NCBI RefSeq assembly: GCF_019375555.1
Contig: NZ_JAHXDN010000001.1
Location: 124,001 to 188,000, forward strand
Direction of reading: 5' to 3'
From: Roseobacter insulae
GTDB taxonomy: Bacteria > Pseudomonadota > Alphaproteobacteria > Rhodobacterales > Rhodobacteraceae
Length of the DNA stretch: 64,000 bases
In this document: positions 5,052-32,339 of the stretch, one piece after another
Layout of the letters: every line of letters begins with the position of its first letter
Numbering within the stretch: position 1 is the stretch's first letter
Position numbers and translations under genes: made by a program
Notes under the pieces: model-generated
Databases searched by the model: none
What the model was told of the DNA's origin: nothing
Seen by the model: only the letters and a program-made list of their open reading frames with translations

Positions 5052-5065
5052 TTGACATATATCAA
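5052..5065. promoter_or_regulatory. FNR/FixK-type box TTGACATATATCAA
   Basis: The site fits TTGAY-N4-RTCAA with both half-sites intact. It lies in the 326-base gap between the divergent phosphatase-like gene (start 4880) and the cytochrome gene (start 5207), 172 and 141 bases from their starts. A second box lies 72 bases to the right. Confidence 0.6.
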
Positions 5066-5137
5066 CGCCGCGGAACGGTGCTGCCGGTTTTCTTGCCATG
5101 CGCAGCAACCCGCAAGCCGCAAACGTGTTACAAGCGA

Positions 5138-5151
5138 TTGATCTAAGTCAG
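5138..5151. promoter_or_regulatory. FNR/FixK-type box TTGATCTAAGTCAG
   Basis: One half-site is perfect and the other has a single mismatch in its last base. It ends 55 bases before the cytochrome c start, the same spacing as for most other boxes in this island. Confidence 0.55.
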
Positions 5152-5206
5152 GACCGGGATCACATGACGTGATGATCTGTCCAAAGCCCTCATATCGGAA
5201 GATGAA

Positions 5207-5620
5207 ATGCCCCGACCAAAATCACGCTACCTTTGCTTTCTCGCCCTGCCCTTTCTGGCCGGCTGCAACGAGACAGAACCCCGGATTGACGCGACACGCG
5301 GCGCCAGTCTGTTTGCGCAGAACTGTGCCGCCTGTCACGGCGCGGATGCACGCGGTAACGGACCTGAATCACTAAAGATTGGTCAACCGGCGCCGGATCT
5401 GACCGGACTTACGCGCAGCGCAGGGGGCACCTTCCCGCGCGATGAGGTGATAAGTGTGATCGACGGGTTCAACCGCCAGAGCCATCCTGAAAATGTCATG
5501 CCGGAATTCGGCGCCGGTGACGTTGGCCCGACGGTGATCGTGGGGGAGGATGATGATGCCACGCCCATCCCCGCGGACCTGCTGGCGCTCTCAAACTACC
5601 TCGAGCAAATCCAGCGGTAG
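5207..5620 (+). CDS. Class I c-type cytochrome lipoprotein
   Basis: The 137-residue product has a short lipoprotein signal with the lipobox LAGC (Cys20), then one haem motif CAACH (Cys40, Cys43, His44) and a probable axial Met98 in VMPEFGAG. It is therefore predicted to be a membrane-anchored periplasmic monohaem cytochrome that carries electrons. Two FNR/FixK boxes lie upstream, so expression is probably raised at low oxygen. No oxidase or reductase genes are adjacent, so its redox partner is unknown. Convergent with the antiporter gene that ends 51 bases downstream. Confidence 0.88.
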   Translation: MPRPKSRYLCFLALPFLAGCNETEPRIDATRGASLFAQNCAACHGADARGNGPESLKIGQPAPDLTGLTRSAGGTFPRDEVISVIDGFNRQSHPENVMPEFGAGDVGPTVIVGEDDDATPIPADLLALSNYLEQIQR

Positions 5621-5671
5621 TCCAACTCCGGCCGGGCCACCGGGGCGACATTGTACGCAGCCGGTGCATTA

Positions 5672-6838
5672 TCAATCGGCGGTCTTTTGCGATACCCGGA
5701 TCGCCATCAGGCAGGCAATCGGGCCGACGATCTCGAATATCACGGTACTGCCGACCGTCAGAACCATGATCTGGTCGGCCCATTGCGGGAATTGCCGCGC
5801 AGCCACCAATGCCATTCCGATGGCAACCCCCGCCTGTGGCAGCAGCGCCCAGCCGAAAAGCGCACGCCTGCTTTTCGATATCTGTGCCGCGCCGCCGCCG
5901 ATCCATCCGCCGATGAAACGAGAGATTACACGCAATCCGATGAACAGGGCCCCCAACGCGCCCAATTCGGTGGAGGCCTGCACATCAAGTGTTGCCCCCG
6001 CGAGCAGGAAGAACAGCACCATGAAGGGCCATTGAATGTGTTCTATCTCATGAAATGCGCGCGTGTGATGCGTCGCGAAATTCACGATGACGGCACCGGC
6101 AACCAGCCCCGCGATCAGAAAGGACAAGTCAAACCAAAGGGCACATCCCGCTGTCAGGAACACGAGGCCCAGGGCCTCGGTTTCAAGCGGTTCTCCATCG
6201 CTGACGCGGCCGGTCAAGAATGCTGCCGGTGCACCGACAACCACCCCCAGCAGAACCGAACCGCTGATCTCCCTCAAAGCGTCCAGGTGCACCGGCACGC
6301 CGGTCGTGCCGGTCATCTGCGCAACGACCACCACTGCAAGGCTGAAAACAATGAGCCCCCAGACATCGTCAACGGCGACAATACCGCTGAGCGTTTGCGT
6401 GAAGTCGTTCTTCACCCCCGACTGCCGGATCACATCATTGGTTGCGGCTGGCGCTGTCGCGGACGCAATAGCTGCCAGAAGCAGGGCCAGTTCAAGCGGC
6501 ACGCCAAACAGCATCAGACCAACCGAGACAAGAAGGACAGTGATGATGACAATCGCGCCAGAGATCAGCAGGATCGTGGCCCCGTAGCGTCGCAGCGTCG
6601 CCCCACGGAGAACCCCTCCGAGCAGAAACGCGACCATCGTCAGGGCCAGAACCGACAGAACGGGGTAAAGCGCTGTCACCTCCGCGGGGATGATATTGAG
6701 CCCCGAACGGCCGATCAGCAGCCCACATAACAGCAACAGGGTTACGCGTGGAATCCACGAATTGCGACCGATCTGATCGGCGAAAAGCCCCGCAAAGAAA
6801 AGCGCACCCAGGGTTATCAGCAGCCCGTGCGACTCCAT
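5672..6838 (-). CDS. CPA2-type sodium/proton antiporter
   Basis: The 388-residue protein is almost entirely hydrophobic with 11-12 predicted membrane segments and the Na+/H+ exchanger (PF00999) pattern, for example the start GLLITLGALFFAGLFADQIG and the segment ASATAPAATNDVIRQSG that resembles the ion-binding DP-like helix crossover. No C-terminal TrkA-N or RCK domain is present, so it is a short form. It exchanges monovalent cations for protons across the inner membrane. It follows a small lipoprotein gene by 12 bases and is probably cotranscribed from the promoter with the box at 7093. Confidence 0.85.
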   Translation of the reverse strand: MESHGLLITLGALFFAGLFADQIGRNSWIPRVTLLLLCGLLIGRSGLNIIPAEVTALYPVLSVLALTMVAFLLGGVLRGATLRRYGATILLISGAIVIITVLLVSVGLMLFGVPLELALLLAAIASATAPAATNDVIRQSGVKNDFTQTLSGIVAVDDVWGLIVFSLAVVVVAQMTGTTGVPVHLDALREISGSVLLGVVVGAPAAFLTGRVSDGEPLETEALGLVFLTAGCALWFDLSFLIAGLVAGAVIVNFATHHTRAFHEIEHIQWPFMVLFFLLAGATLDVQASTELGALGALFIGLRVISRFIGGWIGGGAAQISKSRRALFGWALLPQAGVAIGMALVAARQFPQWADQIMVLTVGSTVIFEIVGPIACLMAIRVSQKTAD

Positions 6839-7092: not shown

Positions 7093-7106
7093 TTGATCTG
7101 TGTCAG
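7093..7106. promoter_or_regulatory. FNR/FixK-type box TTGATCTGTGTCAG
   Basis: Perfect left half-site, one mismatch at the last base. It lies 92 bases before the lipoprotein start on the minus strand and shares the GTCAG ending with the boxes at 5138 and 32326. Confidence 0.5.
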
Positions 7107-7248: not shown

Positions 7249-7695
7249 TTAATCCGCTTGCCGGAGATCGTGTCGGCTGATCATCATCCGGGTCATGAGC
7301 AGCCGCGTCCCCAGCATGCCTGCGATCAAGGCCGCGACAAACAGAATGACCTTCGGGTTTGCGGTACCCAGAGCGGGTAATGCACCGCCCGGGCAGAAAC
7401 CGGCGATACCCCAGCCGATGCCAAAGATGCCCGCACCGGTCAGCAATCGGGCGTCCAGGGTTTTCTTTGTCGGGATGTCGAAGGCAGGCTCGTAAACCGG
7501 GTGGTCCCGCTTCAGAACGAACCGGTAGCCGATGAAGGTCACGATCAGCGCGCCGCCCATCACGAAAGCAAGGCTTGGATCCCAGGTGCCCGCGATATCG
7601 AAGAAATTGAGCACCTTGGCCGGGTTTGCCATGCCCGACAAGGCGATTCCGGTGCCGAACACCACACCGATCAGAAGGGTGAGGATATTGCGCAT
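7249..7695 (-). CDS. YeeE/YedE-family (DUF6691) sulfur transport protein, second half
   Basis: This 148-residue membrane protein corresponds to one half of a YeeE/YedE (PF04143) transporter, with four or so hydrophobic segments and the signature GFCPGGALPALG (Cys101). Characterised YeeE proteins import thiosulfate through a path lined by cysteines. It begins three bases after the end of the partner half-transporter gene, and the two probably form one functional unit. The operon order is crp/fnr, DUF2892, YeeE half 1, YeeE half 2. Confidence 0.85.
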   Translation of the reverse strand: MRNILTLLIGVVFGTGIALSGMANPAKVLNFFDIAGTWDPSLAFVMGGALIVTFIGYRFVLKRDHPVYEPAFDIPTKKTLDARLLTGAGIFGIGWGIAGFCPGGALPALGTANPKVILFVAALIAGMLGTRLLMTRMMISRHDLRQAD

Positions 7696-7698
7696 GGC

Positions 7699-8130
7699 CT
7701 ATACTCCAAAAAGATGGCGGGTCACATAAACGGTGACACCCGTGGTGAGCATGAAGGTGGCTGTTGCGGCGAATGATCTCGGCGACAGACGGGCCATCCC
7801 GCAGACACCATGGCCGGAGGTACACCCGCTGCCCAGGGTGACACCTGCGCCGACAAGCACACCGCCGATCACCAGCAGCACGTTGGAGGATGGCACGACG
7901 ATCTCGGGCAATTGTCCGGCACCTGCAAAATAGATCCAGGGACCGCATAGCATACCGACCAGAACCAGTGCGCGCCATGTCCAGTCCGTGGAGGAGGCGG
8001 GCCGCAGCGCCCCGGCCAGAATGCCGGTTGCGCCCATAATCTTGCCGCGCAGGAGCATCAGGGACACGGCAGCCAGACCAATGAGGGAACCGCCAACGGC
8101 GGATGCTATGGGTGTAAACGTGGTTTCCAT
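7699..8130 (-). CDS. YeeE/YedE-family sulfur transport protein, first half
   Basis: The 143-residue membrane protein shows the other conserved YeeE/YedE motif, [11 protein letters not shown] (Cys103 and Cys110), in a four-helix half-transporter. Together with the next gene it would form a transporter for a reduced sulfur compound such as thiosulfate; the substrate is inferred from the family. The start follows the DUF2892 stop by three bases, indicating a tightly packed operon. Confidence 0.87.
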
Positions 8131-8133
8131 GGT

Positions 8134-8427: not shown

Positions 8428-9096
8428 TCACGGCGTTTCCGCCAGCCTGCGGATACTGTTCGGGTCCGTCAGCTCGATCGTGCCACGGCTCAGGTTGAGC
8501 CACCCCCGACGTTCAAATTCCTTGAGCTGTCGCGAAACGACCTCGCGGGCGGTACCCAGTTCAATGGCAAATTTCTGGTGCGTCAGATGCAGGGTCTTGT
8601 CATCGCCCATCAGCGCCAGCAGTTTTTGCGCGACACGAATGTCCATACGCTTGAAAGCGATCTCTTCGATGACCAGAAACAGATCGGTGATCCGTTTCGA
8701 ATAAGCCTCGAAGACGAAGGCCCGAAATTCCTTCGACAGCGACATCAGTTCATCGAAATCGTCACGCGGGATCAGCACCGCCTCCACATCTGTTTCGGCA
8801 ATGCCCTCCGCAGAATAATCCTCGAACGCCAGCAGACAGGCCGTGGTCAATACGCAGCTTTCCCCCGAGTGAACGCGGTAGAGTACGATTTCTCGGCCCG
8901 CTTCGGACAGCTGCTGGACCCGCACGGTGCCAGATACCAGCAGCAACAGGTTCTCTGCCGGACTACCGGGGCCGAAAATGACCGTTCCCTGCCGCAACTT
9001 GGTGGTATGTGCCTTTCTGTCCAGGAGACGCGACACCTGTTCCGAGATGCCTGCGAGGCCGGGAAAGCTTGCGCGCCAGGAGGGTAGCGTCAGCAT
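8428..9096 (-). CDS. Crp/Fnr-family regulator of the sulfur operon
   Basis: The 222-residue protein has a cNMP-like effector domain (about 15-130) and a Crp winged helix (about 145-215, HQKFAIELGTAREVVSRQLKEFERRG). It lacks the N-terminal cysteine cluster of FNR but has two cysteines in the effector domain, Cys81 and Cys87 in ESCVLTTACLL. The start at 9096 is chosen over an upstream extension because the family begins here and GGAA lies at ribosome-site distance. It heads the DUF2892-YeeE-YeeE operon. A perfect FNR/FixK box lies 63 bases upstream. Cysteine-based sensing of sulfane sulfur is my inference. Confidence 0.87.
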   Translation of the reverse strand: MLTLPSWRASFPGLAGISEQVSRLLDRKAHTTKLRQGTVIFGPGSPAENLLLLVSGTVRVQQLSEAGREIVLYRVHSGESCVLTTACLLAFEDYSAEGIAETDVEAVLIPRDDFDELMSLSKEFRAFVFEAYSKRITDLFLVIEEIAFKRMDIRVAQKLLALMGDDKTLHLTHQKFAIELGTAREVVSRQLKEFERRGWLNLSRGTIELTDPNSIRRLAETP

Positions 9097-9159: not shown

Positions 9160-9173
9160 TTGACTTTTGTCAA
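9160..9173. promoter_or_regulatory. FNR/FixK-type box TTGACTTTTGTCAA
   Basis: A perfect 14-base palindromic site in the divergent region between the Crp/Fnr gene (start 9096, 63 bases away) and the flavodoxin-like gene (start 9228, 54 bases away). It could serve both promoters. Confidence 0.7.
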
Positions 9174-9877: not shown

Positions 9878-11524
9878 ATGACCCGCAAGACACCCAATCT
9901 CGACGCGCGATGGCATGCGGCTCTGGGCCAGATAACCGGCGGCCTGTCACCGGCTGCATTGGCCACCGCGTACCTTGACTGGTCGCTGCACCTGATCGCA
10001 TCACCCGACAAGCAAGCCGAATTGATGCGTCGCGTCCTTGAGCCTTCCGCCGCGAGCGAGACAGAACCCGAAGATTCACGATTTGCAGACCCCGCGTGGT
10101 CAACCTTTCCCTACAACCTCTTCGTTCAGAATTTTCTGGCCACTCAGGCATGGTGGAACGCCGCCACGACCGGGCTTCCCGGGGTGGACCCGAAACATGA
10201 AAACATCGTCAGCTTCGCGACACGCCAGTGGATCGATGTTTTCTCCCCCGCGAATTACGCGCTGACCAATCCGCAGGTCTGGGACCGCACTCGTCAGGAG
10301 ATGGGCCAGAACCTCGTCCGTGGGATGCGTTACTGGCTTGAGGATTTCAACAGGTTGATGTCTCGTCTGCCGCGCCAGTCTCACGGCTTCAGCGTTGGCG
10401 AAAACCTTGCGACAACACCGGGTCAGGTGGTGTTGCAGAACGATCTGATCGAGCTGATCAGGTATCATCCCACCACCAAGAAAGTGCGTGCCGAACCCAT
10501 TCTGATCGTGCCCGCGTGGATCATGAAATACTATATCCTCGACCTGACGGATCAGCGCTCCCTTGTCGCATACCTGCGGGATCAGGGCTTCGAAGTCTAC
10601 ATCATCTCATGGAAGAACCCGACAGAGGAAGATGCCGACAAGGGGTTGCAGGACTACATTGATCTTGGCATCCGGGCCTCCATTGATCTGATCAAGACGA
10701 CCGGTGCGACACGGTTGCACGCTGTGGGCTACTGTCTGGGCGGCACGCTCCTGTCCATCGCTGCCGCCGCGATGGGGCGCGATGGCGATAACGCATTTTC
10801 CACGATCAGCCTGCTGGCGTCTCAGGTCGATTTCTCTGAGCCTGGGGAACTGGGGCTCTTTATCAACGAAAGCCAGGTTGCCTTTCTCGAAGACATGATG
10901 GCCACGCGCGGGTATCTTAAAGCCGACCAGATGGCAGGCGCGTTTCGCATGCTGCGCTCCAACGATCTGATCTGGAGCCGCGTGGTTCGCCACTACCTTC
11001 TCGGGGAACGTACACAGGAAAACGCGCTTCTGGCGTGGAATGCCGATGCCACGCGGATGCCTGCCGCGATGCATTCGGAATACCTCCGGCATCTGTTTCT
11101 CAAAAACGATCTGGCCAAGGGACGCTTTGCCGTTGACGGCAAGTCGGTGGCGCTGACCGATATCCGGTGCCCGATCTATTGCGTCGCGACGGAAACCGAT
11201 CACGTGTCGCCTTGGAAATCCGTCTACCGACTGTTGCTGCTCACCGATACGGATGTGACCTTTGTCCTGACCAATGGCGGACATAACGGCGGGATCCTGT
11301 CGGAACCCGGGCATGCGGGGCGGCACTTCCGCGCTGACCACAAATCTGAAGGGGACAGACACAGAACCGCCGCCGACTGGTTGGAGGCAACGGCCACACA
11401 GGACGGATCGTGGTGGGTGCACTGGGCAGGCTGGCTACGCGAAAAGAGCGGGGACCGACGCGCGCCCCGCCCCGTACTCGTTAAGATCAAAACGCCTGCA
11501 CCGGGAACATACGTCTTTGGATAA
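9878..11524 (+). CDS. phaC: Poly(3-hydroxyalkanoate) synthase PhaC
   Basis: The 548-residue protein is a PHA synthase: an N-terminal PhaC_N domain followed by an alpha/beta-hydrolase domain with the lipase-like box GYCLGG, catalytic Cys286. The remaining triad is visible as the Asp in ETDHVSPW and the His in NGGHNGG. It polymerises hydroxyacyl-CoA into intracellular granules. The length is a little shorter than typical class I enzymes (about 590). The gene is convergent with the phasin gene, whose stop lies only two bases beyond its own. No phaA or phaB lies nearby. Confidence 0.93.
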   Translation: MTRKTPNLDARWHAALGQITGGLSPAALATAYLDWSLHLIASPDKQAELMRRVLEPSAASETEPEDSRFADPAWSTFPYNLFVQNFLATQAWWNAATTGLPGVDPKHENIVSFATRQWIDVFSPANYALTNPQVWDRTRQEMGQNLVRGMRYWLEDFNRLMSRLPRQSHGFSVGENLATTPGQVVLQNDLIELIRYHPTTKKVRAEPILIVPAWIMKYYILDLTDQRSLVAYLRDQGFEVYIISWKNPTEEDADKGLQDYIDLGIRASIDLIKTTGATRLHAVGYCLGGTLLSIAAAAMGRDGDNAFSTISLLASQVDFSEPGELGLFINESQVAFLEDMMATRGYLKADQMAGAFRMLRSNDLIWSRVVRHYLLGERTQENALLAWNADATRMPAAMHSEYLRHLFLKNDLAKGRFAVDGKSVALTDIRCPIYCVATETDHVSPWKSVYRLLLLTDTDVTFVLTNGGHNGGILSEPGHAGRHFRADHKSEGDRHRTAADWLEATATQDGSWWVHWAGWLREKSGDRRAPRPVLVKIKTPAPGTYVFG

Positions 11525-11526: not shown

Positions 11527-11874
11527 CTATGTCTGCTTGTCTTCCGCCGCCTTTTGAAAGGCCTTGGTTCCCATCTCGACCAGTTTCCCGGTCTCTGCCT
11601 GATACTGGTCCATGGCTTTCTGCACGAATTGCGCCTGAATGTGCTGAAATTCGGTCACGTTCTTGCAGTGCATCATCTCGTGCTGGGTCTGCACGTCTTC
11701 CTTGATACGCTCGGCAAGGAAGCTTGCGAATTCGGCCCCCATGTCACCCAGCGCTTCGACCCAGGCTGCGCTCGCGCCCAGCATATTGCCCATGCCGGCC
11801 TTTTGAAGCTGCGAAAATGCGTTTAGTGGTGTATCACTCGCGGCGGTTTTTCCGGTCTCTTGCTTGCTGGCCAT
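11527..11874 (-). CDS. phaP: Phasin-family granule protein
   Basis: A 115-residue, mainly helical protein (KAGMGNMLGASAAWVEALGD and later FLAERIKEDVQTQHEMMHCK), matching phasins that coat PHB granules. The start at 11874 is set by GGAGG seven bases upstream; the frame continues upstream but without phasin character. It faces the PHB synthase gene tail to tail, which supports the assignment. An FNR/FixK box lies 61 bases upstream, between this gene and the P-type ATPase gene. Confidence 0.82.
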   Translation of the reverse strand: MASKQETGKTAASDTPLNAFSQLQKAGMGNMLGASAAWVEALGDMGAEFASFLAERIKEDVQTQHEMMHCKNVTEFQHIQAQFVQKAMDQYQAETGKLVEMGTKAFQKAAEDKQT

Positions 11875-12007: not shown

Positions 12008-14587
12008 TTGTCCGACACCAATCCGCACATTGGCCTCTCTCAGGCGCAGGTAACAGCGGCCCGCGCGCGGGCGGGCTGGAATGAGCTTCCCGCCGCCAAG
12101 ACAGCGGGCCCTCTTACGGTATTGGTAAGGCAGTTTTCCAGCTCACTGATCCTGATCCTGATCGTTGCAGCCGTCGTCGCGCTGGCCTTGGGCGAGGCCA
12201 TCGATGCAGCAACCATTGGCCTTGTCGTCATCCTTAACGCGGTTCTGGGATTTGTGCAGGAATGGAAGGCCGAAACCGCTCTGGCCGCCCTGCGCAAGAT
12301 GCTGTCACCCAAGGCGATGGTGATCAGGGACGGGCAGGAACAGATTGTCCCCAGCCGTGACATCGTGCCGGGCGATATCCTTGTCTTGGCGCCGGGCGCA
12401 AAGATCGCCGCCGACGCCTTGCTGCTGCGCGCATCCGAACTGCGCGTTGACGAGAGCGTGCTGACGGGGGAATCGATGCCCGTTGACAAATCCGTGGAAG
12501 ACCCCGAGACCTTGGTGTTTACAGGTACATCCGTTGTCGCTGGTCGCGCGGAGGCGCGGGTGACGTCAACCGGGTTGGACACGGAGTTTGGCAAGATCGC
12601 GCATCTGACCGGATCGGTCGGCACCAAAACCACAAACCTGCAACAGAAACTGAGCCATCTCGCCCGCCAGCTTGGCCTTGCGGCCCTGATCGTTGCAGCA
12701 GGCGTGAGCGGGCTTGGGATCGCGCTTGGCCGCGATTTCCTCGAGATGATCATGACCGGCCTGTCACTATCCGTGGCCATGGTGCCAGAGGGATTGCCCG
12801 CCGTCATCACGATCACCCTTGCCCTGGGGGCCACGGCGATGGTCCGCCAGAATGCGCTGGCCCGGCGTTTGCAGGCGGTCGAAACGCTTGGTGCGGCCTC
12901 TGTCATCTGCACCGACAAAACGGGCACCCTCACCGAAAACAAGATGACGGCCACCAGCATCTGGACAATGGATCGCCAGTATGACGTCACAGGCACAGGC
13001 TATGATCCGGCAGGCCATATTGAAGCTGACGGAGAACGCCTGCGCGCGGTCGATGATCCGGTGCTGGCAGCACTTCTGCAGACCGGGCTCTATTGCAGCC
13101 ATGCGCGCTTGAGTTTTGAAGGTGAAACATGGACGATGATCGGCGCCCCCACCGAGGGCGCGCTGATCACCCTCGCCTATAAGGGGTGGTGCGAACTCCA
13201 GCAGGAACGCAACCTGCTCGCCGAAATCCCCTTCAGCAGTGCCCGCAAGCGCATGAGCGTGTTGTACCAGTCGCCCGATGAAACACTGGTTCTGACCAAA
13301 GGCGCGCCCGAACAGATCCTTGAGATATGCACCACGATCATGCGCGAAGACGGCCCCCAGGAACCGGGACCGCACGATCTGCAGCGCATCAATGATGCCT
13401 ATGCGCAAATGGCCGAACAGGGGTTGCGTGTCATCGCCCTGGCCCGCCGGGCCGTCACCACCAACGAGATTGTTGAAGAAGAACTGACTTTTCTTGGGCT
13501 TGTCGGCCTGATCGATCCGCCGCGTGCGGAAGTCAAAGATGCCATCGCCTCGGCCCATTCGGCCGGCATTCGCGTGATCATGATCACCGGCGACAGCCCC
13601 ATCACGGCAACCGCCATCGCGCAGCAACTGTCCATGAAGGTGAGTGACTGTCAGACCGGTGCAGAACTGGATGCCCTGTCAGATGAAGAACTGGCCGCCC
13701 ATCTGACGCGGGACATATTATTCGCCCGCACCAAGCCGGAACAGAAGATGCGGATCGTCGCATCGCTGCAGGATCAGGGGCAGATTGTCGCCATGACGGG
13801 TGACGGCGTGAACGACGCGCCCGCGCTGAAAAAAGCCGATATCGGGGTGGCGATGGGCATTCGGGGCACAGACGTGGCCCGCGATGCCTCCGATCTGGTG
13901 CTGCTGGATGACAATTTCGCCACGATCGTGCGGGCAATCGGGGAGGGGCGACGCCAGTTCGCCAATGTCAAGAAATTCGTGCGCTACCTGCTGTCATCCA
14001 ACGCGGGTGAGGTCATCGCCCTTGTCGTCAATATCGCCATCGGGGGGCCGCTGGTGTTTTTGGCGACGCAGATCCTGTGGATGAATCTGGTCACGGATGG
14101 CGTCACGGCCGTGGCCCTCGGCATGGAAAAATCCGAGCCTGATCAGATGCAGCACCCGCCGCGTCGCAAGAACACGCCCATCCTTGGTATCGGCGGCATC
14201 CTGACAATCCTTGCGCTTGGGATTTACACCGGGCTGTCGAGCCTGTGGATTTTCTTTGAGCTGCTGGATCAGGGTGTGGAACTTGCCCGGACAACGGCGT
14301 TTACTGCCATGGTCGTTTTCGAAAAGGCAGGTGTGTTCGCCTTCAGGTCCCTGCGGTTGCCAGGGTGGCGTATCGGGTGGTTCAGCAACAAGTTCTTGCT
14401 GGTCGCCTTGGCCGTAACGCTCAGCGCCCAGGTTCTGGCGGTTTACTGGCCCCCCTTGCAATTCATGCTGCGCACGGTGCCGATCGGTGTCGCGGAATGG
14501 CAGTGGATCGCAATCTTCGCCCTGCCGATTGTGATTGTCCCCGAACTGCTCAAGTCAGCATATCACTGGATTTACCGGGTGAAATAA
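12008..14587 (+). CDS. Type II cation-transporting P-type ATPase
   Basis: I place the start at a TTG codon (12008) because CGGAGG lies about seven bases before it and the next residues (SDTNPHIGLSQAQV) match the usual N-terminus; an ATG-started extension would cover the FNR box. The 859-residue protein has the full P-type set: LTGES in the actuator domain, membrane helix VPEGLPAVITITLALG, phosphorylation motif CTDKTGTLT (Asp303), nucleotide-binding domain, and TGDGVNDAPALKKADIG. The pattern is that of the Ca2+/Na+ (type II, SERCA-like) group, so export of Ca2+ or another cation is likely. Its promoter has an FNR/FixK box. Confidence 0.92.
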   Translation: MSDTNPHIGLSQAQVTAARARAGWNELPAAKTAGPLTVLVRQFSSSLILILIVAAVVALALGEAIDAATIGLVVILNAVLGFVQEWKAETALAALRKMLSPKAMVIRDGQEQIVPSRDIVPGDILVLAPGAKIAADALLLRASELRVDESVLTGESMPVDKSVEDPETLVFTGTSVVAGRAEARVTSTGLDTEFGKIAHLTGSVGTKTTNLQQKLSHLARQLGLAALIVAAGVSGLGIALGRDFLEMIMTGLSLSVAMVPEGLPAVITITLALGATAMVRQNALARRLQAVETLGAASVICTDKTGTLTENKMTATSIWTMDRQYDVTGTGYDPAGHIEADGERLRAVDDPVLAALLQTGLYCSHARLSFEGETWTMIGAPTEGALITLAYKGWCELQQERNLLAEIPFSSARKRMSVLYQSPDETLVLTKGAPEQILEICTTIMREDGPQEPGPHDLQRINDAYAQMAEQGLRVIALARRAVTTNEIVEEELTFLGLVGLIDPPRAEVKDAIASAHSAGIRVIMITGDSPITATAIAQQLSMKVSDCQTGAELDALSDEELAAHLTRDILFARTKPEQKMRIVASLQDQGQIVAMTGDGVNDAPALKKADIGVAMGIRGTDVARDASDLVLLDDNFATIVRAIGEGRRQFANVKKFVRYLLSSNAGEVIALVVNIAIGGPLVFLATQILWMNLVTDGVTAVALGMEKSEPDQMQHPPRRKNTPILGIGGILTILALGIYTGLSSLWIFFELLDQGVELARTTAFTAMVVFEKAGVFAFRSLRLPGWRIGWFSNKFLLVALAVTLSAQVLAVYWPPLQFMLRTVPIGVAEWQWIAIFALPIVIVPELLKSAYHWIYRVK

Positions 14588-14798: not shown

Positions 14799-14812
14799 TT
14801 GACATAGCTCAA
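14799..14812. promoter_or_regulatory. FNR/FixK-type box TTGACATAGCTCAA
   Basis: Complete TTGA-N6-TCAA site, 34 bases before the preferred ATG of the VIT1-like gene. If transcription starts 41-42 bases from the box centre, as in class II FNR promoters, the RNA would begin at about that ATG. Confidence 0.6.
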
Positions 14813-15575: not shown

Positions 15576-15589
15576 TTGAGTAAGATCAA
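15576..15589. promoter_or_regulatory. FNR/FixK-type box TTGAGTAAGATCAA
   Basis: Complete TTGA-N6-TCAA site 49 bases before the ATG at 15639 of the site-2 protease gene. It argues against translation starting at the TTG that forms the first base triplet of the box. Confidence 0.55.
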
Positions 15590-20244: not shown

Positions 20245-20338
20245 TTGATACAAAAGATTACAAAATCTCGCAGTTGCAGCATAACCCACAATACCAAGGC
20301 TTTCCAAGATGGACCGATGATCACTGGGGGTTAGCCAT

Positions 20339-21092: not shown

Positions 21093-21506
21093 CGCCCGTA
21101 TCGCCGACGGCAGGCTGGCGCGGACATCCTCGATTTCACCCGCGCTCAACCGGGCGTTCAGCAAGTCGAACACACAGCGAATATCCTCGGACCCGCGGTA
21201 TTCTTCCGTTTCACCCAGCTGCGTTTCGATGAACCCGATGAAATCTGCGGCTGATCTTTCCTTGATCGGCGTTCGCTTCGGCACCCAGCCTTCAAAGAAA
21301 ATGCCACGGATCAACAGGGGAAGCTGGGCGGAAAACTGAGCCATCTCATCAAGCAACAGATGGTCGCGCAAATGGTGCAGGGTCACCCGGAGCAAACGCA
21401 GCGCACTGCGTTTTGATGACCAATCCAGACGGCCACTCAACTCGTTTATCCAGTCATGTGTTACGTGGGTCGCGCGGTCGATGACTTCCAAACCTTGCAC
21501 GGACAT
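21075..21506 (-). CDS. DUF2267 protein
   Basis: The 143-residue, helical protein matches DUF2267 (start EVIDRATHVTHDWINELSGRLD; then ALRLLRVTLHHLRDHLLLDEMAQFSAQLPLLIRGIFFEGW). The function is unknown; such proteins are often found near stress and USP genes. It follows the membrane protein gene by 20 bases on the minus strand and is probably in the same operon under the box at 22769. Confidence 0.82.
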   Translation of the reverse strand: MSVQGLEVIDRATHVTHDWINELSGRLDWSSKRSALRLLRVTLHHLRDHLLLDEMAQFSAQLPLLIRGIFFEGWVPKRTPIKERSAADFIGFIETQLGETEEYRGSEDIRCVFDLLNARLSAGEIEDVRASLPSAIRALWPDP

Positions 21507-22768: not shown

Positions 22769-22782
22769 TTGATCGGAATCAA
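22769..22782. promoter_or_regulatory. FNR/FixK-type box TTGATCGGAATCAA
   Basis: A perfect palindromic site between the divergent membrane protein (start 22708, 60 bases away) and Hsp20 gene (start 22855, 72 bases away). Confidence 0.75.
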
Positions 22783-22854: not shown

Positions 22855-23340
22855 ATGCCACGCCACACATTACCCAGCCTGCATTCGGAATCAGGTGGAT
22901 CTCTCTTCTTCCCCTCGTTTCAGAAAGAGATAAACCGGTTGATCGATCAGTTCCGCACCGGCTTTCCAATGCCGGACACGGCTGAACAGCCTGTTTTTTC
23001 AACCCCGCTGTTTCCGGCGGTGGACATCGTGGACACCGACGAGGCGATGGAGATCAGCGCCGAGGTGCCCGGTGTCCGGCAGGAAGATCTGGAGGCGACG
23101 ATCACCGGCGATATCTTGACTTTAAAAGGGGAAAAAAGCTCAGATCACGAAGAGAGCGAAGATAGCTTTCACCGTATCGAACGCCGCTACGGCAGCTTTC
23201 GGCGCCAAATCCCGCTGGGGTTCTCTCCGGAGGAAGATGCGGTTTCCGCCAGTTTTGCCAATGGAGTGCTGAAGCTGCGGGTCGCCAAGCCGGTAACCGC
23301 AAAGGCCGAAGTTCGAAAAATCGACATCAGCAACGGCTGA
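22855..23340 (+). CDS. Hsp20/alpha-crystallin small heat-shock protein
   Basis: The 161-residue protein has an alpha-crystallin domain from about residue 55 (FPAVDIVDTDEAMEISAEVPGV) to the C-terminal FANGVLKLRVAKP, which corresponds to the conserved G-V-L end strand. It acts as an ATP-independent holdase in the cytosol. The ATG at 22855 has AAAGGAGA at the right distance; the open frame upstream is not family-like and crosses the box. It is followed 54 bases later by a universal stress gene, likely in one operon, as in dormancy-type regulons. Confidence 0.92.
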   Translation: MPRHTLPSLHSESGGSLFFPSFQKEINRLIDQFRTGFPMPDTAEQPVFSTPLFPAVDIVDTDEAMEISAEVPGVRQEDLEATITGDILTLKGEKSSDHEESEDSFHRIERRYGSFRRQIPLGFSPEEDAVSASFANGVLKLRVAKPVTAKAEVRKIDISNG

Positions 23341-23394
23341 TACCGGCGCCGGGCACGCAAGCGCCCGCGTATCACTTACAAAAGGACAACCACC

Positions 23395-24234
23395 ATGGGC
23401 GTTAAAACACTACTTGTATGCCTGACAACATCAGAGCACGCCGAGACATTGATGACGTTCGCCGCACCGCTCGCGCGTAAACATGATGCACATCTGATCG
23501 GATTGCACACAGTGGAAGCCCTGCTTGTCTATCCCGGGATCGCAATGCACGTACCCGAACCGGCCTTCGCGGCATTCAATGAAAGCCAGCGGGCAGAATC
23601 AGAAGCCATCGAGGCGATATTCACCAAACACACGCAGAACGAAGACTTCCCAAGCGAATTCCGCCTTCTGCGCGCCGAGGCGGTCTCCGCAAGTGACCGT
23701 ATGGTTGAGAGTGCCCGGGCAGCAGACCTCGTGATTATGGCGCGCGAGGACGAGGCAACAGACCGCTATGACCAGCGGCAAGCACAGGTCCGCGTCATTC
23801 GCGAAAGCGGCCGTCCTGTTATCGTCGTGCCGTTGAATTACGAGGGTCCGACCATTGGCAGCAACATTCTCCTGGGATGGAGCGACACGCGCGAGGCCGC
23901 CCGGGCCGCCCACGATCTGTTGATCCTCGCGGAAGAGGGGGCCGCCGTGTCTGTTTTGCGGGTACGCAGCAAACCGCAGGACGCCTTCAAGGATTCAGAT
24001 GGGATCGATCTGGCGGAAATGCTGTCGCGGCACGGCCTGAAGCCCGCTCTTGAACAACGCGACCCATCGGGAGGCGACATCGCCCAAACCCTGAATCAAT
24101 TCGCATTCGAAAAAGGCGCGGATCTCATCGTGACCGGTGCCTTTGGCCATTCGAAAGCCTACGATTTCGTCATTGGTGCAACAACATATGCGCTGCTCAG
24201 GGAGTCGACGCTGCCGGTGATGTTTTGCAAGTAA
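23395..24234 (+). CDS. Tandem universal stress protein
   Basis: The 279-residue protein consists of two UspA-like domains (about 1-145 and 150-279). The second ends with DLIVTGAFGHSKAYDFVIGATTYALLRES, a variant of the USP nucleotide-binding signature. It resembles the alphaproteobacterial tandem USPs found with Hsp20 and respiratory stress genes. It follows Hsp20 and is probably cotranscribed under the box at 22769. Its last 38 bases overlap the convergent endonuclease/phosphatase gene. Confidence 0.87.
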   Translation: MGVKTLLVCLTTSEHAETLMTFAAPLARKHDAHLIGLHTVEALLVYPGIAMHVPEPAFAAFNESQRAESEAIEAIFTKHTQNEDFPSEFRLLRAEAVSASDRMVESARAADLVIMAREDEATDRYDQRQAQVRVIRESGRPVIVVPLNYEGPTIGSNILLGWSDTREAARAAHDLLILAEEGAAVSVLRVRSKPQDAFKDSDGIDLAEMLSRHGLKPALEQRDPSGGDIAQTLNQFAFEKGADLIVTGAFGHSKAYDFVIGATTYALLRESTLPVMFCK

Positions 24235-25663: not shown

Positions 25664-25677
25664 TTGATCAATCTCAA
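25664..25677. promoter_or_regulatory. FNR/FixK-type box TTGATCAATCTCAA
   Basis: Complete TTGA-N6-TCAA site 68 bases before the first gene of the arginine deiminase operon. Anaerobic control of this pathway by an FNR-type protein (Anr) is established in Pseudomonas. Confidence 0.7.
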
Positions 25678-25745: not shown

Positions 25746-27191
25746 ATGGTGCAAACCTCCCAGCCTGCGGTTTCAACCGACCAACCCGCCACGGGATGGT
25801 TTCCGACCGCCTATACGATCCTTTTCGCCCTTGTCGTGATAATGGCCATCCTCACGTGGCTGGTGCCCGCCGGCGAATACCAGCGGGTACAAAGCGATAT
25901 CCTCGGCAAGGATGTGCCCGTGCCCGGGACCTATCAGACCGTCGAGGCAGCACCCCAGAGCATTACACATGTACTGATGGCGCCGATTGCCGGGTTCTAT
26001 GATCCGGTCTCCTACGAAGCGAATGCGATCGATGTCTCGCTCTTCGTTCTGGTGGTCGGCGGGTTTCTGGGTGTGGTCACCGCTACCGGGGCCATCGACA
26101 TCGGTGTGTCACAGGCCATGCGCAAGCTCAAAGGGCGCGAAAAGTGGATGATCCCGATCATGATGACGCTCTTCGCGGCTGGCGGCACAACCTATGGCAT
26201 GGCCGAAGAAACGCTGGCCTTTTACGTTCTCCTGATCCCGATCATGATCGCCGCGGGCTATGACGCCCTGACCGGTGTGGCGGTGATCATGCTGGGTGCG
26301 GGGGTCGGGGTCATAGGCTCGACCATCAATCCGTTCTCAACCGCGATTGCGTCTGACGCCGCGGGCATTCCATTCACCCAGGGCATGTGGCTGCGCGTCG
26401 CGATCCTCGGGCTGTGCTGGCTGGCCGCCACCCTTTTCGTCATGCGCTATGCAGAGCGCGTGCGCCGCGACCCGTCCGCCTCGCGCGTGGCCGACATGAA
26501 AGAGGCCAACGAAGCCTTTTTCCTGCAACCGGCGAAGCGACCGGACACGGAAAAGCTGACGCCCCTGCATATTGTGATCCTGATCCTTTTTGCTGCGACC
26601 TTCGCCGTTATGGTATGGGGTGTTTCCACGCAGGGCTGGTGGATGGCGGAAATGTCCGCCCTCTTTCTGGGCTCCGCCATCCTGATCGGCACGCTTGCCT
26701 GGCTGGGGGAAAAGCAGTTCACCACCGCCTTCGTGGCGGGTGCGCGCGACCTGCTGGGCGTTGCCCTCGTCATCGGACTGGCGCGCGGCATTGTCATCAT
26801 CATGGATCAGGGCCGGATTACCGATACGTTCCTGCATGGCTTCGAGGGATGGATAGGTGGCATGTCGGACATCGCCTTCGTCAATGCCTTGTTCGCAATC
26901 GAAGCATTGATGAGCTTTCTGGTGCCCTCGACATCCGGCCTTGCCGTTCTGTCGATGCCGATCATGGCACCCCTGTCCGATTTCGCCGGGGTGAGCCGTG
27001 ACCTTGCTGTCACCGCCTTTCAGACCGCCATCGGCATCACCAACCTCATCGCACCTACATATGCCGTTGTCGTGGGTGGTCTGGCCATCGGGCGGGTTCC
27101 CTACAACAGGTGGCTGCTGTTCATCTGGCCGCTCCTTCTGATCCTGTCGTTTATTTGCATGGCTCTGCTGAGCCTGGCGGTGATGTTGTGA
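25746..27191 (+). CDS. YfcC/DcuC-family transporter of the arginine deiminase operon
   Basis: The 481-residue membrane protein has about 12 helices and matches the YfcC/C4-dicarboxylate anaerobic carrier family (start of the core: [23 protein letters not shown]; later [17 protein letters not shown] and [19 protein letters not shown]). Its position directly before arcA, with a four-base overlap, suggests it works as the arginine/ornithine antiporter in place of classical ArcD; this role is inferred from context. The FNR/FixK box upstream indicates low-oxygen induction of the operon. Confidence 0.87.
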
Positions 27192-28411
27192 CCGCCCCCC
27201 TTGGTGTTCATTCCGAAACCGGCAAGCTGCGCGCGGTGATGGTGTCGCGCCCGGGGTTGGCGCATGAACGGCTGACGCCCAGCAACTGCGACGAACTTTT
27301 ATTCGATGACGTGTTCTGGGTTGAAGAGGCGCGCAAGGATCACTTTGCCTTTTGTGACAAGATGCGTGACCGCGGCATTGAAGTGCTGGACCAACACGAC
27401 ATGTTGACGGAGATACTCGACATCGCAAAGGCGCGCCGGTGGCTGCTTGATCGCAAGATCACCGAGGACCACATCGGTGTCGGCATGATGGATGATCTGC
27501 GCGCATGGCTGGACGAGATGCCCTCGCCTGCGCTGACGCGGTTTCTGACCGGCGGTATCACGGTGCACGATCTGCCCTTTGCCCCGACCAGCATGTTCGG
27601 CCGGTTTCTGGGAGCAGACGGTTTTGTCCTGCCGCCGCTGCCGAACCTGCTGTTCACACGCGACACCAGCTGTTGGATCTATGGCGGCGTGACCCTCAAC
27701 CCGATGCATTGGCCGGCCCGTCAGCAGGAAACTCTGATTGCCGCGGCGATCTACCGGTTTCACCCCCGTTTTGCGGGGCGGACAAAAGTCTGGTGGGGCA
27801 ATCCCGATCAGGATTTTGGCCCAGCAACCCTGGAAGGAGGGGATATCATGCCCATCGGCAACGGGGTCGTTCTGGCGGGCATGGGAGAGCGCACAACCCC
27901 TCAGGCGGTGGGTCAGCTGGCCATGTCCCTGTTCCGTCAGGAAGCCGCCGAACGTGTTATTGCCTGCCAGATGCCAGCGTCGCGCGCTGCCATGCATCTC
28001 GACACGGTTTTCACTTTTTGTGATCGGGATCTGGTGACCAGCTTCACGCATGTGGCTGACAAGATCAGATGTTTCACCCTGTTCCCGGACGACAGGCGTG
28101 GACTGCGCGTGAAGGAAGACCCGGGCAACATATTCGACATGGTCGAGGAGGCGCTTGGCCTGACATCCCTGCGCACCATTGGCACCGGCGGTGATCACTT
28201 CGAGCAGGAGCGCGAACAGTGGGACGATGGCAATAATGTCGTAGCCCTGGAGCCGGGCGTTGTGCTGGCCTATGACCGCAACGTGCATACCAACACATTG
28301 CTGCGTAAGGCCGGTGTCGAAGTGATCACGATCCGCGGTGCCGAGCTGGGTCGCGGTCGCGGCGGCGGCCATTGCATGACCTGTCCGATCTCACGCGATC
28401 CTGTGGAGTAA
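27188..28411 (+). CDS. arcA: Arginine deiminase ArcA
   Basis: The start is a GTG at 27188 that overlaps the transporter stop (GTGA), giving 407 residues, the normal size. The protein carries the deiminase motifs: N-terminal [47 protein letters not shown] and the C-terminal GGGHCMTCP with catalytic Cys396. It converts arginine to citrulline and ammonia in the cytosol. It is the first enzyme of the operon, followed four bases later by arcB. Confidence 0.96.
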
Positions 28412-28415
28412 GCGC

Positions 28416-29417
28416 ATGGCCTATAACCTCAAGAACCGATCCTTCCTGACCCTGCGGGATTTCACCGGACCCGAAATCAGGTTTCTGCTGAAACTCGCCG
28501 CCGATCTGAAAGCGGCCAAATACGCAGGCACCGAACAACAGACGCTTGCGGGGCGGGAAATTGCCCTGATCTTCGAGAAAAATTCAACCCGCACCCGTGT
28601 CGGTTTCGAAGTCGCCGCCCATGATCAGGGGGCGCATGTCACCTATCTTGGCCCCTCGGGCAGCCACATCGGCAAGAAGGAAAGCATCAAGGATACAGCG
28701 CGCGTTCTGGGCCGGGTGTATGATGCGATCGAGTATCGCGGGTTTGGCCAGAAGGTCGTGGAAACGCTGGCCGAATGGTCAGGCGTACCCGTCTACAATG
28801 GCCTGACGGATGAATTCCATCCCACGCAGATCCTTGCGGATGTGTTGACGATGACCGAACATGTCGACAAACCGCTTGGCCAGATCGCCTTCTGTTTTCT
28901 GGGTGATGTTGGCAACAACATGGGCGACAGTCTGTTGATCGGCGCGGCGAAACTGGGCATGGATGTGCGGCTGTGTGGACCGAAATCGCTGTGGCCGGAC
29001 CAATCCATCGTCAAGGCCGCGCTGGCGCAAGCCAAGCAAACCGGTGCGCGGATCTTACTGACGGAGGACGTCCAGCAAGGGGTGAGCGAATGCGATGTTC
29101 TCTATACCGATGTCTGGGTCTCGATGGGTGAGGCCGAAAAGGTCTGGGCGGAAAGGATCAAGCTGCTGATGCCGTATCAGGTCACCTCGGAGGTCATGGC
29201 GATGACCGGCAATCCCCAGACGAAGTTCATGCATTGCCTGCCCGCCTTTCACAACACTGATACAGAGGTCGGTGCAGAAATCCGACAGAAGTTTGGCCTT
29301 GACGGGATGGAGGTCACGGAAGAGGTGTTTGAATCCACCGCCTCCATCGTCTTTGATCAGGCGGAAAACAGGATGCACACGATCAAAGCGGTTCTTGTTG
29401 CAACTTTGGGGTCCTGA
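28416..29417 (+). CDS. arcB: Catabolic ornithine carbamoyltransferase ArcB
   Basis: The 333-residue protein has the carbamoyl-phosphate site [14 protein letters not shown] and the ornithine-side motif [10 protein letters not shown]. The length (longer than the ~308-residue anabolic forms) and the position between arcA and arcC indicate the catabolic enzyme, which phosphorolyses citrulline to ornithine and carbamoyl phosphate. The stop directly touches the arcC start, so translation is probably coupled. Confidence 0.95.
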
Positions 29418-30332
29418 ATGAGAATTGTCGTTGCGTTGGGCGGTAACGCCCTGTCTGTCAGAGGCGAAAGCCTGACCGCCGAAAGCCAGCGTGCCAGCAT
29501 CCGGGTTGCCGCCGCCTCTCTCGCGCAGCTTCTGGAGGCTGGTCATGAAGTGGTCATCACCCACGGGAACGGCCCTCAGGTCGGGTATCTGGCCCTGCAG
29601 GGCGGCGCCTTTCCCCTCGATGTGCTGGGGGCGGAAACCGATGGGATGATCGGCTATGTCCTCCAACAGGAGCTCGACAACGCCTATGCCCCGGAAACCC
29701 ACTACGCCACCCTGCTGACCCAGATCGAAGTCGATCCCGATGATCCTGCGTTTTTGGCACCGACCAAATTCATCGGGCCAATCTACACCGAGGAAGAAGC
29801 GGCGAAACTCAGTGCAGAGCGCAGTTGGACCATGGGCCGGGACGGCGTGCATTTTCGCCGCACGGTGCCATCGCCGCGGCCCAAGCGGATCCTCGAACTG
29901 GGTGTGATACGGTTGTTGCTCGACCAGGGCGTTGTCATCATCTGTGCTGGCGGGGGCGGTATTCCGGTTGTTCAAAAAGACGATGGCTCGATGATCGGGG
30001 TGGAGGCCGTGATTGACAAGGATCACGCCAGTGGTCTGCTGGCACGCGCTCTGGACGCCGATGCCTTCCTGATGCTCACGGATGTTGCGGGCGTGTTCAC
30101 GGGCTGGGGGACGCCGGACCAGTCCCTGATCAGACAGGCCTCCCCGCAGGAGCTTGCGCAAATGTCCTTTCCCGCCGGGTCGATGGGACCGAAGGTGGAG
30201 GCCGCCTGCGAATTTGCCACGGCAACCGGCGGTTTTGCCGCGATCGGTCGCCTGGCCGACACGCAGAGCCTTGTCGCCGGAACGACCGGCACGCGGATCT
30301 GTTCAGACCGCAACGCCCCACCAGCTCCGTGA
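29418..30332 (+). CDS. arcC: Carbamate kinase ArcC
   Basis: The 304-residue amino acid kinase-fold protein starts RIVVALGGNALSVRGE and contains VVITHGNGPQVGYLALQ and ICAGGGGIPVV, typical of carbamate kinase. It makes ATP from carbamoyl phosphate and ADP, the energy-yielding step of the pathway. It is the last gene of the operon and its final 30 bases overlap the end of the convergent DUF5765 gene. Confidence 0.95.
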   Translation: MRIVVALGGNALSVRGESLTAESQRASIRVAAASLAQLLEAGHEVVITHGNGPQVGYLALQGGAFPLDVLGAETDGMIGYVLQQELDNAYAPETHYATLLTQIEVDPDDPAFLAPTKFIGPIYTEEEAAKLSAERSWTMGRDGVHFRRTVPSPRPKRILELGVIRLLLDQGVVIICAGGGGIPVVQKDDGSMIGVEAVIDKDHASGLLARALDADAFLMLTDVAGVFTGWGTPDQSLIRQASPQELAQMSFPAGSMGPKVEAACEFATATGGFAAIGRLADTQSLVAGTTGTRICSDRNAPPAP

Positions 30333-31025: not shown

Positions 31026-31028
31026 CGG

Positions 31029-31328
31029 TCAAATGGCCTCGTAGCGGGCCAGCCTTCGCAAAAACCTGTCGCGTTCTTCCAGCAGCTCAAGCACCAGCGC
31101 GACACCGGCGGTGTTGATCCCCAGATCCCGGTTCAGCCGTCGCGCTTTCTTGGCACGGACGATGTTTGCCCCCCTGAAGCGCCAGGTCTGAGCAGTAGAC
31201 CCGTGCGGTTCGAGCACGCCATGCTCCACCAGTTCAATGACCCATGCCTCGTCCGCCTCGCAGAAACGACACAGGTCCGGCAGCGAAAGCGCGTCCACGA
31301 TATCGCTGCGCCGCGTTGCTTTTTTCAT
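31029..31328 (-). CDS. cbpM: CbpM-like chaperone modulator
   Basis: The 99-residue helical protein (LSLPDLCRFCEADEAWVIELVEHGVLEP) matches CbpM, a specific inhibitor of the DnaJ homologue CbpA. The start at 31328 has GGAGG eight bases upstream. It follows cbpA by four bases, the standard arrangement. Confidence 0.85.
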   Translation of the reverse strand: MKKATRRSDIVDALSLPDLCRFCEADEAWVIELVEHGVLEPHGSTAQTWRFRGANIVRAKKARRLNRDLGINTAGVALVLELLEERDRFLRRLARYEAI

Positions 31329-31332
31329 AGTC

Positions 31333-32265
31333 CTATCCTCCAAGATGGGCGCGCGGATCAAATGGCATCACCTTTGCCATTTCCTCAAAGAACGCGCGCG
31401 CTTCTTCCGTGGTGACCTTCGGATTGACGATTTTGAGCGTCGCATAGATGTCGCCGGCGGGTGTGCCGGGCAAACCCTTGCCCTTGAGCCGCAGTTTTTG
31501 CCCCGTGCGCGCACTTTCAGGGATGCGAAGATCCACCTTGCCGCCCGGTGTCGGCATCACGACATGCCCCCCCAAGACGGCCTCCCAGGGCGCAACGGGC
31601 AGATCAAGATGCAGGTCTTTACCCTCGGGCCGGTAAATCGGATGAGGCGCGAAGGACACTTCCAGAAACAGGTCTCCTGCGGGACCACCGCCAAAAGAAG
31701 ATGCGCCCTGCCCGGCAAGCCGGATGTGCTGCCCTTGCATTATGCCTTTGGGCACGCTCACCGAAACGGACCGCTCCTGCAGGGTGACAGCCCCATCCGG
31801 CCCCACCACGGGCGACCGCATCGTCAAGGTGCGCGCTGCGCCCCTATATGCGTCCTCAATGTCGATCATCAACTGCGCATGGCTGTCCGCGCCACGGCCT
31901 GACGCCCGGTGTCCGCCCGCTGCCCCGCCACGCCGGAACAGCGTCTCAAAAAAGTCGCTGAACGCCCCCTCGGGACCGGGGCCGCCTTCGGAAAACGCAA
32001 AGCCGCTGTCCCATCCGGGGGGCGGCTGATAGCCTCCCGCGCCGCGCGGCGGTTCGGCACCCAATTGATCGTAGGCCGCACGCTTTTCGGGATCGCTCAA
32101 CACCTCGTAGGCTTCGTTCACATCCTTGAACTTGGCCTCTGCATCGGCAGATGTGTTGATGTCAGGGTGATACTTGCGGGCAGCTTTGCGAAAGGCTCGC
32201 TTTATCTCGTCTGCAGTTGCATCGCGCTTCACCCCCAACGCTTTGTAGTAGTCCTTGAATTCCAT
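31333..32265 (-). CDS. cbpA: DnaJ-family co-chaperone CbpA
   Basis: The 310-residue protein starts with a J-domain (MEFKDYYKALGVKRDATADE; HPD at residues 33-35), then a Gly/Pro-rich linker and two C-terminal beta domains (LMIDIEDAYRGAARTLTM and GKDLHLDLPVAPWEAVLGG). The zinc-finger of true DnaJ is absent, which defines CbpA. It stimulates DnaK. In-frame codons upstream are not J-domain-like, so the ATG at 32265 is used. A box at 32326 lies 60 bases upstream. Confidence 0.9.
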   Translation of the reverse strand: MEFKDYYKALGVKRDATADEIKRAFRKAARKYHPDINTSADAEAKFKDVNEAYEVLSDPEKRAAYDQLGAEPPRGAGGYQPPPGWDSGFAFSEGGPGPEGAFSDFFETLFRRGGAAGGHRASGRGADSHAQLMIDIEDAYRGAARTLTMRSPVVGPDGAVTLQERSVSVSVPKGIMQGQHIRLAGQGASSFGGGPAGDLFLEVSFAPHPIYRPEGKDLHLDLPVAPWEAVLGGHVVMPTPGGKVDLRIPESARTGQKLRLKGKGLPGTPAGDIYATLKIVNPKVTTEEARAFFEEMAKVMPFDPRAHLGG

Positions 32266-32325
32266 CTGCCATGTATCCGAAAATCTGATGTCGCAGCAAA
32301 TTGGCACAGCGCTCATCGAGCTTCA

Positions 32326-32339
32326 TTGATCTTTGTCAG
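32326..32339. promoter_or_regulatory. FNR/FixK-type box TTGATCTTTGTCAG
   Basis: One mismatch at the last base. It lies between the divergent cbpA (60 bases) and USP (83 bases) starts, matching the divergent placement seen elsewhere in the island. Confidence 0.55.

Follow-up and report, generated by a model that had tools for sequence, protein, structure and literature searches.

The question raised by the DNA considered here is which regulator the many FNR/FixK-type boxes of a Roseobacter insulae contig stretch serve. The window, meaning the whole 64-kb stretch that was analysed, comprises positions 124001-188000 of contig C1 in a draft genome of 4.88 Mb and 17 contigs; between its positions 5052 and 34799, palindromes of the form TTGA-N6-TCAA are interspersed with stress genes and with genes for a hybrid FixL-like kinase (hFixL), an OmpR-type regulator resembling FxkR, and a FixK-type activator. 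The reading favoured here, with a probability of roughly 70%, is that the genes of this island form a regulon for survival at low oxygen, arranged about a control unit of their own that represents the hFixL-FxkR-FixK cascade in a Roseobacter version.

An initial annotation had described eleven such sites, and a pattern scan recovered all of them at the same coordinates (eight perfect, three with one mismatch), each intergenic according to independent gene calls. Seven sites in six divergent intergenic regions were counted, where five between divergent genes had been reported, and the region from 34.7 to 64 kb, described as free of boxes, holds a perfect intergenic one at 34786, 81 bases before the start of the gene at 33809-34705. 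Distances to the nearest start codon, given as mostly 50-90 bases, are for the most part 35-90, the exceptions including the sites at 7093 (about 255) and 5052 (about 142). A further perfect match, at 62975, falls within a gene. The sites, to which no strand is assigned, are as follows:

5052..5065, perfect box TTGACATATATCAA
5138..5151, one-mismatch box (TTGATC....GTCAG)
7093..7106, one-mismatch box (TTGATC....GTCAG)
9160..9173, perfect box TTGACTTTTGTCAA
11936..11949, perfect box between phasin and P-type ATPase genes, conserved across loci
14799..14812, perfect box ahead of the VIT-family gene, conserved across loci
15576..15589, perfect box ahead of the M50-CBS gene, conserved, promoter spacing examined
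17801..17814, perfect box between the Host_attach-family gene and hFixL, conserved across loci
22769..22782, perfect box between bactofilin-like and Hsp20 genes, conserved across loci
25664..25677, perfect box ahead of the arginine deiminase operon, conserved across loci
32326..32339, one-mismatch box (TTGATC....GTCAG) between CbpA-like and universal stress protein (USP) genes
34786..34799, perfect intergenic box overlooked earlier, 2/2 orthologues boxed

The window contains 10 perfect boxes, against a mean of 1.06 and a maximum of 4 in 100 shuffles. Nine of them lie in 5052-34799, where 0.49 would be predicted from the remaining genome, an excess of approximately 18-fold whose Poisson P of 3e-9 is flattering, as the borders are fixed by the first and last box. 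Genome-wide there are 97 perfect sequences (reversed-pattern control, 19), and the idea that boxes are confined to the island was rejected: dispersed sites exist, and a second cluster left of the window (C1:33585-61052, 68 kb from the first) has 8 perfect boxes against 0.46 expected, its borders likewise being set by the boxes themselves. The 10 proteins encoded beside the boxes of this cluster include three of Hsp20/USP type, a BON protein, an alcohol dehydrogenase, an aldehyde dehydrogenase and a HlyD-type export protein, while one has no family. The strict pattern TTGAYN4RTCAA occurs at 40 sites (control, 4), 11 of them at C1:12-147 kb and 29 elsewhere; with it the contrast is smaller, the island having 4 sites and the left cluster 6, while other parts of the genome reach up to 3 per 30 kb. 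According to gene calls made on short stretches, 25 of the 29 outside sites fall between genes and 4 within them. Among ten proteins chosen near outside sites are cytochrome oxidase subunit I, PPK2 and a sulfur transporter, and one site lies upstream of the gene for FnrL. Because the outside sites are mostly intergenic and near genes such as those for cytochrome oxidase subunit I and FnrL, there is a dispersed FNR-type regulon, from which the two clusters stand out by density. A density similar to that of the island was found at one place only, the second cluster of the same kind.

The boxes are conserved in related bacteria. Around fixK in 66 Roseobacter-group loci (up to 10 kb per side, 1.24 Mb in total) there are 277 boxes, where 11 motifs with permuted half-sites yield 9.5 on average and the reversed motif yields 4, and 64 of the 66 loci have them. 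Per gene, boxes were counted from -300 to +20 in orthologues that had at least 40% identity across half of the query and 150 bases of upstream sequence, all others being dropped (control means, 0-1.1). Boxed orthologues amount to 35/35 for Hsp20, 42/43 for the bactofilin-like gene, 25/26 for phasin, 40/44 for M50-CBS, 19/22 for VIT, 18/21 for the P-type ATPase, 13/16 for Host_attach, 9/15 for the USP gene of 16830, 8/9 for the arginine antiporter, 4/4 for the second Crp/Fnr-family gene, 2/2 for the Blh dioxygenase and 28/58 for hFixL. These counts are not independent events, because the loci are related and divergent pairs share a single box (Hsp20 with bactofilin-like, phasin with P-type ATPase, Host_attach with hFixL). 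Seldom or never preceded by a perfect box are the USP gene of 23452 (10/42), ArcC (5/12), CbpA (2/10), the USP gene of 32423 (2/13), the Na/H exchanger (2/6), a 217-amino-acid gene (1/21), EEP (0/21), arginine deiminase (0/7), ornithine carbamoyltransferase (OTC; 0/8) and fxkR (1/62). With up to one mismatch allowed, boxes recur upstream of CbpA (10/10), the USP gene of 32423 (13/13) and the Na/H exchanger (5/6), where other permutations of the half-sites average 0.3-1.2; since they recur in this manner, the one-mismatch sites look real. CbpA and the USP gene of 32423 are divergent and may share sites.

Promoter geometry is also informative. Of 225 distinct promoters whose box lies 35-110 bases ahead of the gene, 72 have a TANNNT hexamer that begins at a distance of 28 or 29 bases from the centre of the box, while every other offset from 10 to 59 accounts for 0-5. 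The spacing between box centre and putative -10 hexamer is thus that expected of class II FNR/FixK promoters. By gene, it is found in 20/25 promoters of phasin, 27/38 of M50-CBS, 12/42 of the bactofilin-like gene and 4/19 of VIT, and in none of 8 of the arginine antiporter; the signal occurs at least once in 9 of the 19 gene groups and never in the other 10.

In the middle of the island lies the likely control unit, formed by the hFixL, FxkR-like and FixK genes; the initial annotation had recognised neither this unit nor its rhizobial counterparts:

17874..19424, plus strand, hFixL, PAS-HisKA-HATPase-receiver (Pfam)
19391..20167, minus strand, OmpR-type response regulator, FxkR-like (Pfam, including Trans_reg_C), divergent from fixK
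20247..20262, plus strand, K-box-like repeat GATACA-AAAG-ATTACA, 92 bases upstream of fixK
20339..21013, plus strand, FixK-type Crp/Fnr activator lacking the Fe-S cysteine cluster; FixK2 is its best solved match (E 3.3e-33)

The best solved match of hFixL as a whole is the kinase core 5idj, and its PAS domain matches S. meliloti FixL (1d06, E 5.7e-29; 1dp6, E 1.3e-26). The histidine that we take to be the heme ligand is conserved in 56 of the 59 Roseobacter-side rows that have a residue at this position (14 more rows are cut off), the FixL arginine in 59/59, the kinase histidine in 61/61 and the receiver aspartate in 73/73; in these alignments some rows are the same strain twice. The domain is accordingly predicted to be a FixL-type heme PAS, on a kinase with a C-terminal receiver. 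FixK has the recognition-helix E and R in 85/85 rows, and its first 35 residues contain no cysteine in 51 rows, one in 24 and two in 10; the N-terminal Fe-S cysteine cluster present in the FnrL of this genome was not found in the island FixK. Among named sequences, its closest matches belong to strains of Roseobacter and Sulfitobacter (80-77% identity). fxkR is divergent from and adjacent to fixK in 61 of 66 named loci, and hFixL ends at most 1.5 kb upstream of fixK in 58 of 66, some loci ending early. A canonical FixLJ-FixK system was rejected, as the regulator carries Trans_reg_C and is OmpR-type, not FixJ-type. Elsewhere, on C12, a 1493-amino-acid CheB-CheR-PAS-kinase-receiver protein (locus L135:3583-8064), which over its C-terminal third shares 42% identity with the island kinase, is possibly another FixL-like sensor.

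fixK itself is seldom boxed (4/64), yet is preceded by the K-box-like repeat. Passages of two papers give the K-box as GTTACA-N4-GTTACA (PMC7888657, PMC4999443). That exact sequence is in none of 65 fixK upstream stretches, where the best match has one mismatch; in most of these loci the best match is near -94 and mostly reads GATACA-N4-GATACA. A fitted pattern is found in 61 of 66 fixK promoters (65 loci and the window), 57 of them at -100 to -78, against 0.016 expected, and a stricter pattern, which excludes the window copy (-92), in 45 of 66 against 0.008. In S. medicae, GTTACACTCTGTTACA lies upstream of fixK, while the Rhizobium leguminosarum plasmid stretch has no GWTACA-N4-GWTACA match.

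The following scheme is consistent with these features; oxygen sensing, phosphotransfer, DNA binding and the direction of regulation in it are all inferred from sequence. When oxygen falls, the heme-PAS kinase hFixL would become active and signal to the OmpR-type FxkR-like regulator, which would bind the repeat at 20247-20262 and switch on fixK. FixK could then bind the TTGA-N6-TCAA boxes near -41.5 and switch on the island genes, with stress proteins, polyhydroxyalkanoate (PHA) granule proteins, ion pumps, a membrane protease, persulfide handling and ATP supply from arginine as its predicted targets. Because a box precedes hFixL in about half of the loci (28/58), the sequences also suggest positive feedback on the kinase.

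The putative targets and other genes of the island, with families assigned from Pfam and NCBIfam, are:

4533..4880, minus strand, sulfur-transferase half of Blh (family match)
5207..5620, plus strand, cytochrome c (family match)
5672..6838, minus strand, Na/H exchanger family (family match)
7249..8130, minus strand, DUF6691 and YeeE-type sulfur transport genes (family match)
8428..9096, minus strand, second Crp/Fnr-family regulator, recognition helix EVVSR
9878..11524, plus strand, class I PHA synthase-like (PhaC; family match)
11527..11874, minus strand, phasin (family match)
12008..14587, plus strand, P-type cation ATPase, nearest calcium-type models but under their cut-offs
14847..15563, plus strand, VIT-family transporter, alternative start 14928 possible
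15639..16769, plus strand, M50 membrane protease with CBS domains (Pfam)
16830..17763, minus strand, USP and Host_attach-family genes (Pfam)
21075..21506, minus strand, DUF2267 gene (Pfam)
21527..22708, minus strand, bactofilin-like protein, weak Pfam match below cut-off
22969..24234, plus strand, Hsp20 and USP (Pfam)
25746..30332, plus strand, arginine deiminase operon: antiporter, arginine deiminase, OTC, carbamate kinase-type
31029..32265, minus strand, MerR-type and DnaJ/CbpA-like genes
32423..33268, plus strand, USP (Pfam)
33809..34705, minus strand, dioxygenase half of Blh, metallo-beta-lactamase fold (family match)

The persulfide enzyme Blh is split, its halves lying at opposite ends of the island and the dioxygenase half having its own box; in the R. 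leguminosarum comparison stretch Blh is a single protein. The bactofilin-like protein falls in no established family apart from its weak match; its consensus appears to be rich in repeats towards the N terminus, with hydrophobic segments after them.

Within the genus, island-type FixK is found in 9 of 18 relatives (69-80% identity). The bactofilin-like gene occurs in 8/9 relatives with island fixK and 0/9 without (Fisher P 4e-4), and the M50-CBS gene in 8/9 and 1/9, respectively (P 0.003); one relative (G001, 90% complete) has a boxed M50-CBS gene and no island-type fixK. The module has thus largely been gained or lost as a unit. Taken with box conservation and promoter spacing, this co-inheritance bears out the proposal of a coherent FNR/FixK-type regulon. 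Versions of the module are also on plasmids, in Sulfitobacter sp. DSM 110093 (beside ccoNOQP-ccoGHIS) and in Tropicibacter oceani, whose 49-kb plasmid NZ_CP124618.1 carries fxkR, fixK, hFixL, a P-type ATPase, a CBS protein, cytochrome c and a K-box-like site, but only 3 boxes. A tblastn search with the kinase (E 1e-40) hit 851 plasmid records, 339 of them from Rhizobium, many of which will be other hybrid kinases; for one hit, the Rhodobacter sp. CZR27 plasmid, 31.5 kb contained neither a box nor anything matching FixK or FxkR. The rhizobial order fxkR(-) fixK(+) hfixL(+) is seen both on R. leguminosarum 23B pRL23b5 and on a plasmid of S. medicae, and each of the two stretches, about 37.5 kb long, has 11 boxes against controls of 0.1-0.2. 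Hsp20, USP and P-type ATPase genes are neighbours in both, and Blh, YeeE, VIT and site-2 protease genes in one or the other. Window proteins are 28-48% identical to rhizobial plasmid proteins, which does not imply orthology, because the families are wide.

In a tree of FixK from 20 of the 66 loci, two plasmids and the window, the Roseobacter-group sequences are one clade (89/100), separate from FnrL (100/100); Terrarubrum FixK is placed elsewhere, and the deep order of FixK is not resolved by the tree. In the kinase tree, 21 of 23 Roseobacter-side rows form one clade (100/100), with L077 and L082 outside, and the rows from Rhizobiales do not fall together. The 43-46% identity speaks against a recent transfer of the kinase from Rhizobiales. 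An old transfer may have taken place, because with the FixL row as root the Roseobacter kinase clade falls among Rhizobiales rows.

Several observations weigh against a Roseobacter version of the cascade. The -10-like signal is absent for the P-type ATPase (0/18), Host_attach (0/13) and hFixL (0/26), and in the window it accompanies only 2 of 12 sites. Perfect boxes are rare or lacking before cytochrome c (0/3), PhaC (2/8) and DUF2267 (3/38), and the presumed heme histidine is replaced in 3 of 59 rows. The fitted K-box pattern was loosened after the data had been seen, and it failed as a genome-wide search motif, with 16 matches on both strands compared with 25 for the control. The Roseobacter FixK clade stands apart from the FixK of three rhizobial hFixL clusters (100/98). 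In reciprocal searches with S. medicae proteins, the window FixK is best only narrowly (109.7 bits, FnrL 103.4), and the window genes come second for FxkR (198.5 vs. 205.9) and hFixL (428.5 vs. 486.7); hFixL and FxkR thus stand as candidate, not demonstrated, strict orthologues.

Other explanations of the boxes have to be set against the FixK cascade. An unlikely one, though the strongest of them, is that FnrL, an Fe-S sensor encoded elsewhere, is the main activator, and that the cascade only supplements it or acts at higher oxygen. An FnrL with the cysteine cluster is encoded in this genome, and a box lies upstream of its gene; passages of PMC2908626 describe the FNR, FixK and DNR motifs as virtually identical; and according to parts of two other papers, FnrL controls USP genes in Dinoroseobacter shibae (PMC5398030) and a boxed small heat shock gene of R. 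leguminosarum UPM791 is induced about 50-fold at low oxygen via FnrN (PMC11784457). However, FnrL-type matches also occur in genus members without the island, whereas the boxed bactofilin-like gene tracks island fixK, and the boxes cluster around fixK. FnrL may nevertheless share the boxes with FixK in a form of co-control.

Much less probable is control in response to nitric oxide by the second Crp/Fnr protein (8428-9096) or a Dnr-type protein. The former is encoded within the island, with the recognition helix EVVSR and a box before 4/4 orthologues, but these orthologues are present in only 5 of 66 loci, whereas boxes are present in 64. That the boxes arose by chance, helped by base composition, has almost no probability left: the motif is short, and the shuffled rate would give about 81 in a genome of this size, but 0 of 100 shuffles reach 10, and density, conservation in the 66 loci and -10 spacing likewise reject such an origin.

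Compared with known systems, the FixK-centred island is closest to the hFixL-FxkR-FixK cascade of Rhizobium, which in the relevant passages of PMC7888657 and PMC4999443 comprises a heme-PAS hybrid kinase with a receiver, an OmpR-type regulator divergent from fixK, a FixK without the cysteine cluster, a K-box and TTGA-N6-TCAA targets; the rhizobial plasmid hFixL clusters also have the same stress-gene families nearby. The island has a found or predicted counterpart of each of these features, with a K-box-like repeat in the place of the K-box. It differs in that the kinase is only about 43-46% identical, FixK forms its own clade, the K-box is mostly GATACA-N4-GATACA, the gene order is hfixL-fxkR-fixK rather than fxkR-fixK-hfixL, and there is no link to symbiosis or, within the window, to ccoNOQP. 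With FixLJ-FixK of Sinorhizobium, Bradyrhizobium and Caulobacter it shares the FixL-type PAS, the FixK-type activator and the box, but the island kinase has a receiver and the regulator is not FixJ. The DosR regulon of mycobacteria, in which oxygen sensing is heme-based, resembles the island in content (USPs, small heat shock proteins), but its regulators and binding site are unrelated to those of the island; the dormancy-like label given in the initial annotation is tentative. The Rhodobacterales FnrL regulon, as portrayed in parts of PMC5398030 and PMC2908626, shares the box and USP targets, but its targets centre on respiration and heme synthesis.

In passages of a 50-genome survey, Rhodobacterales are given FnrN only and hFixL-FxkR-FixKf is placed as arising in Rhizobiaceae (PMC4999443); parts of another paper treat FixK as generally restricted to Rhizobiales, with no common targets and roles unknown outside three Bradyrhizobiaceae genera (PMC2908626). 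Among the matches listed for FixK/FixL with Roseobacter, Rhodobacterales, Sulfitobacter, Rhodobacteraceae or Roseobacteraceae, no title or abstract describes the cascade in the Roseobacter group; subscription papers lie mostly outside this scope, and absence from print is not claimed. In two of the papers that contain these words, FixK/FixL come up solely in connection with other bacteria or in the references.

Unlike the picture in published surveys, the Roseobacter-group FixK lineage described here has an adjacent sensor cascade and a conserved target set. A broader and distinctly tentative reading, which we hold to be possible rather than probable, is that hFixL-FxkR-FixK and its stress genes are an old, transferable module for survival of microoxia, carried on plasmids and chromosomes in marine Rhodobacterales and soil Rhizobiaceae. 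If so, the symbiotic cascade of rhizobia would be a specialised offshoot of a general survival island, and not an invention of the Rhizobiaceae. With the island, marine bacteria gain a predicted oxygen response that is specific enough to test, and the rhizobial cascade gains a point of comparison from outside symbiosis.

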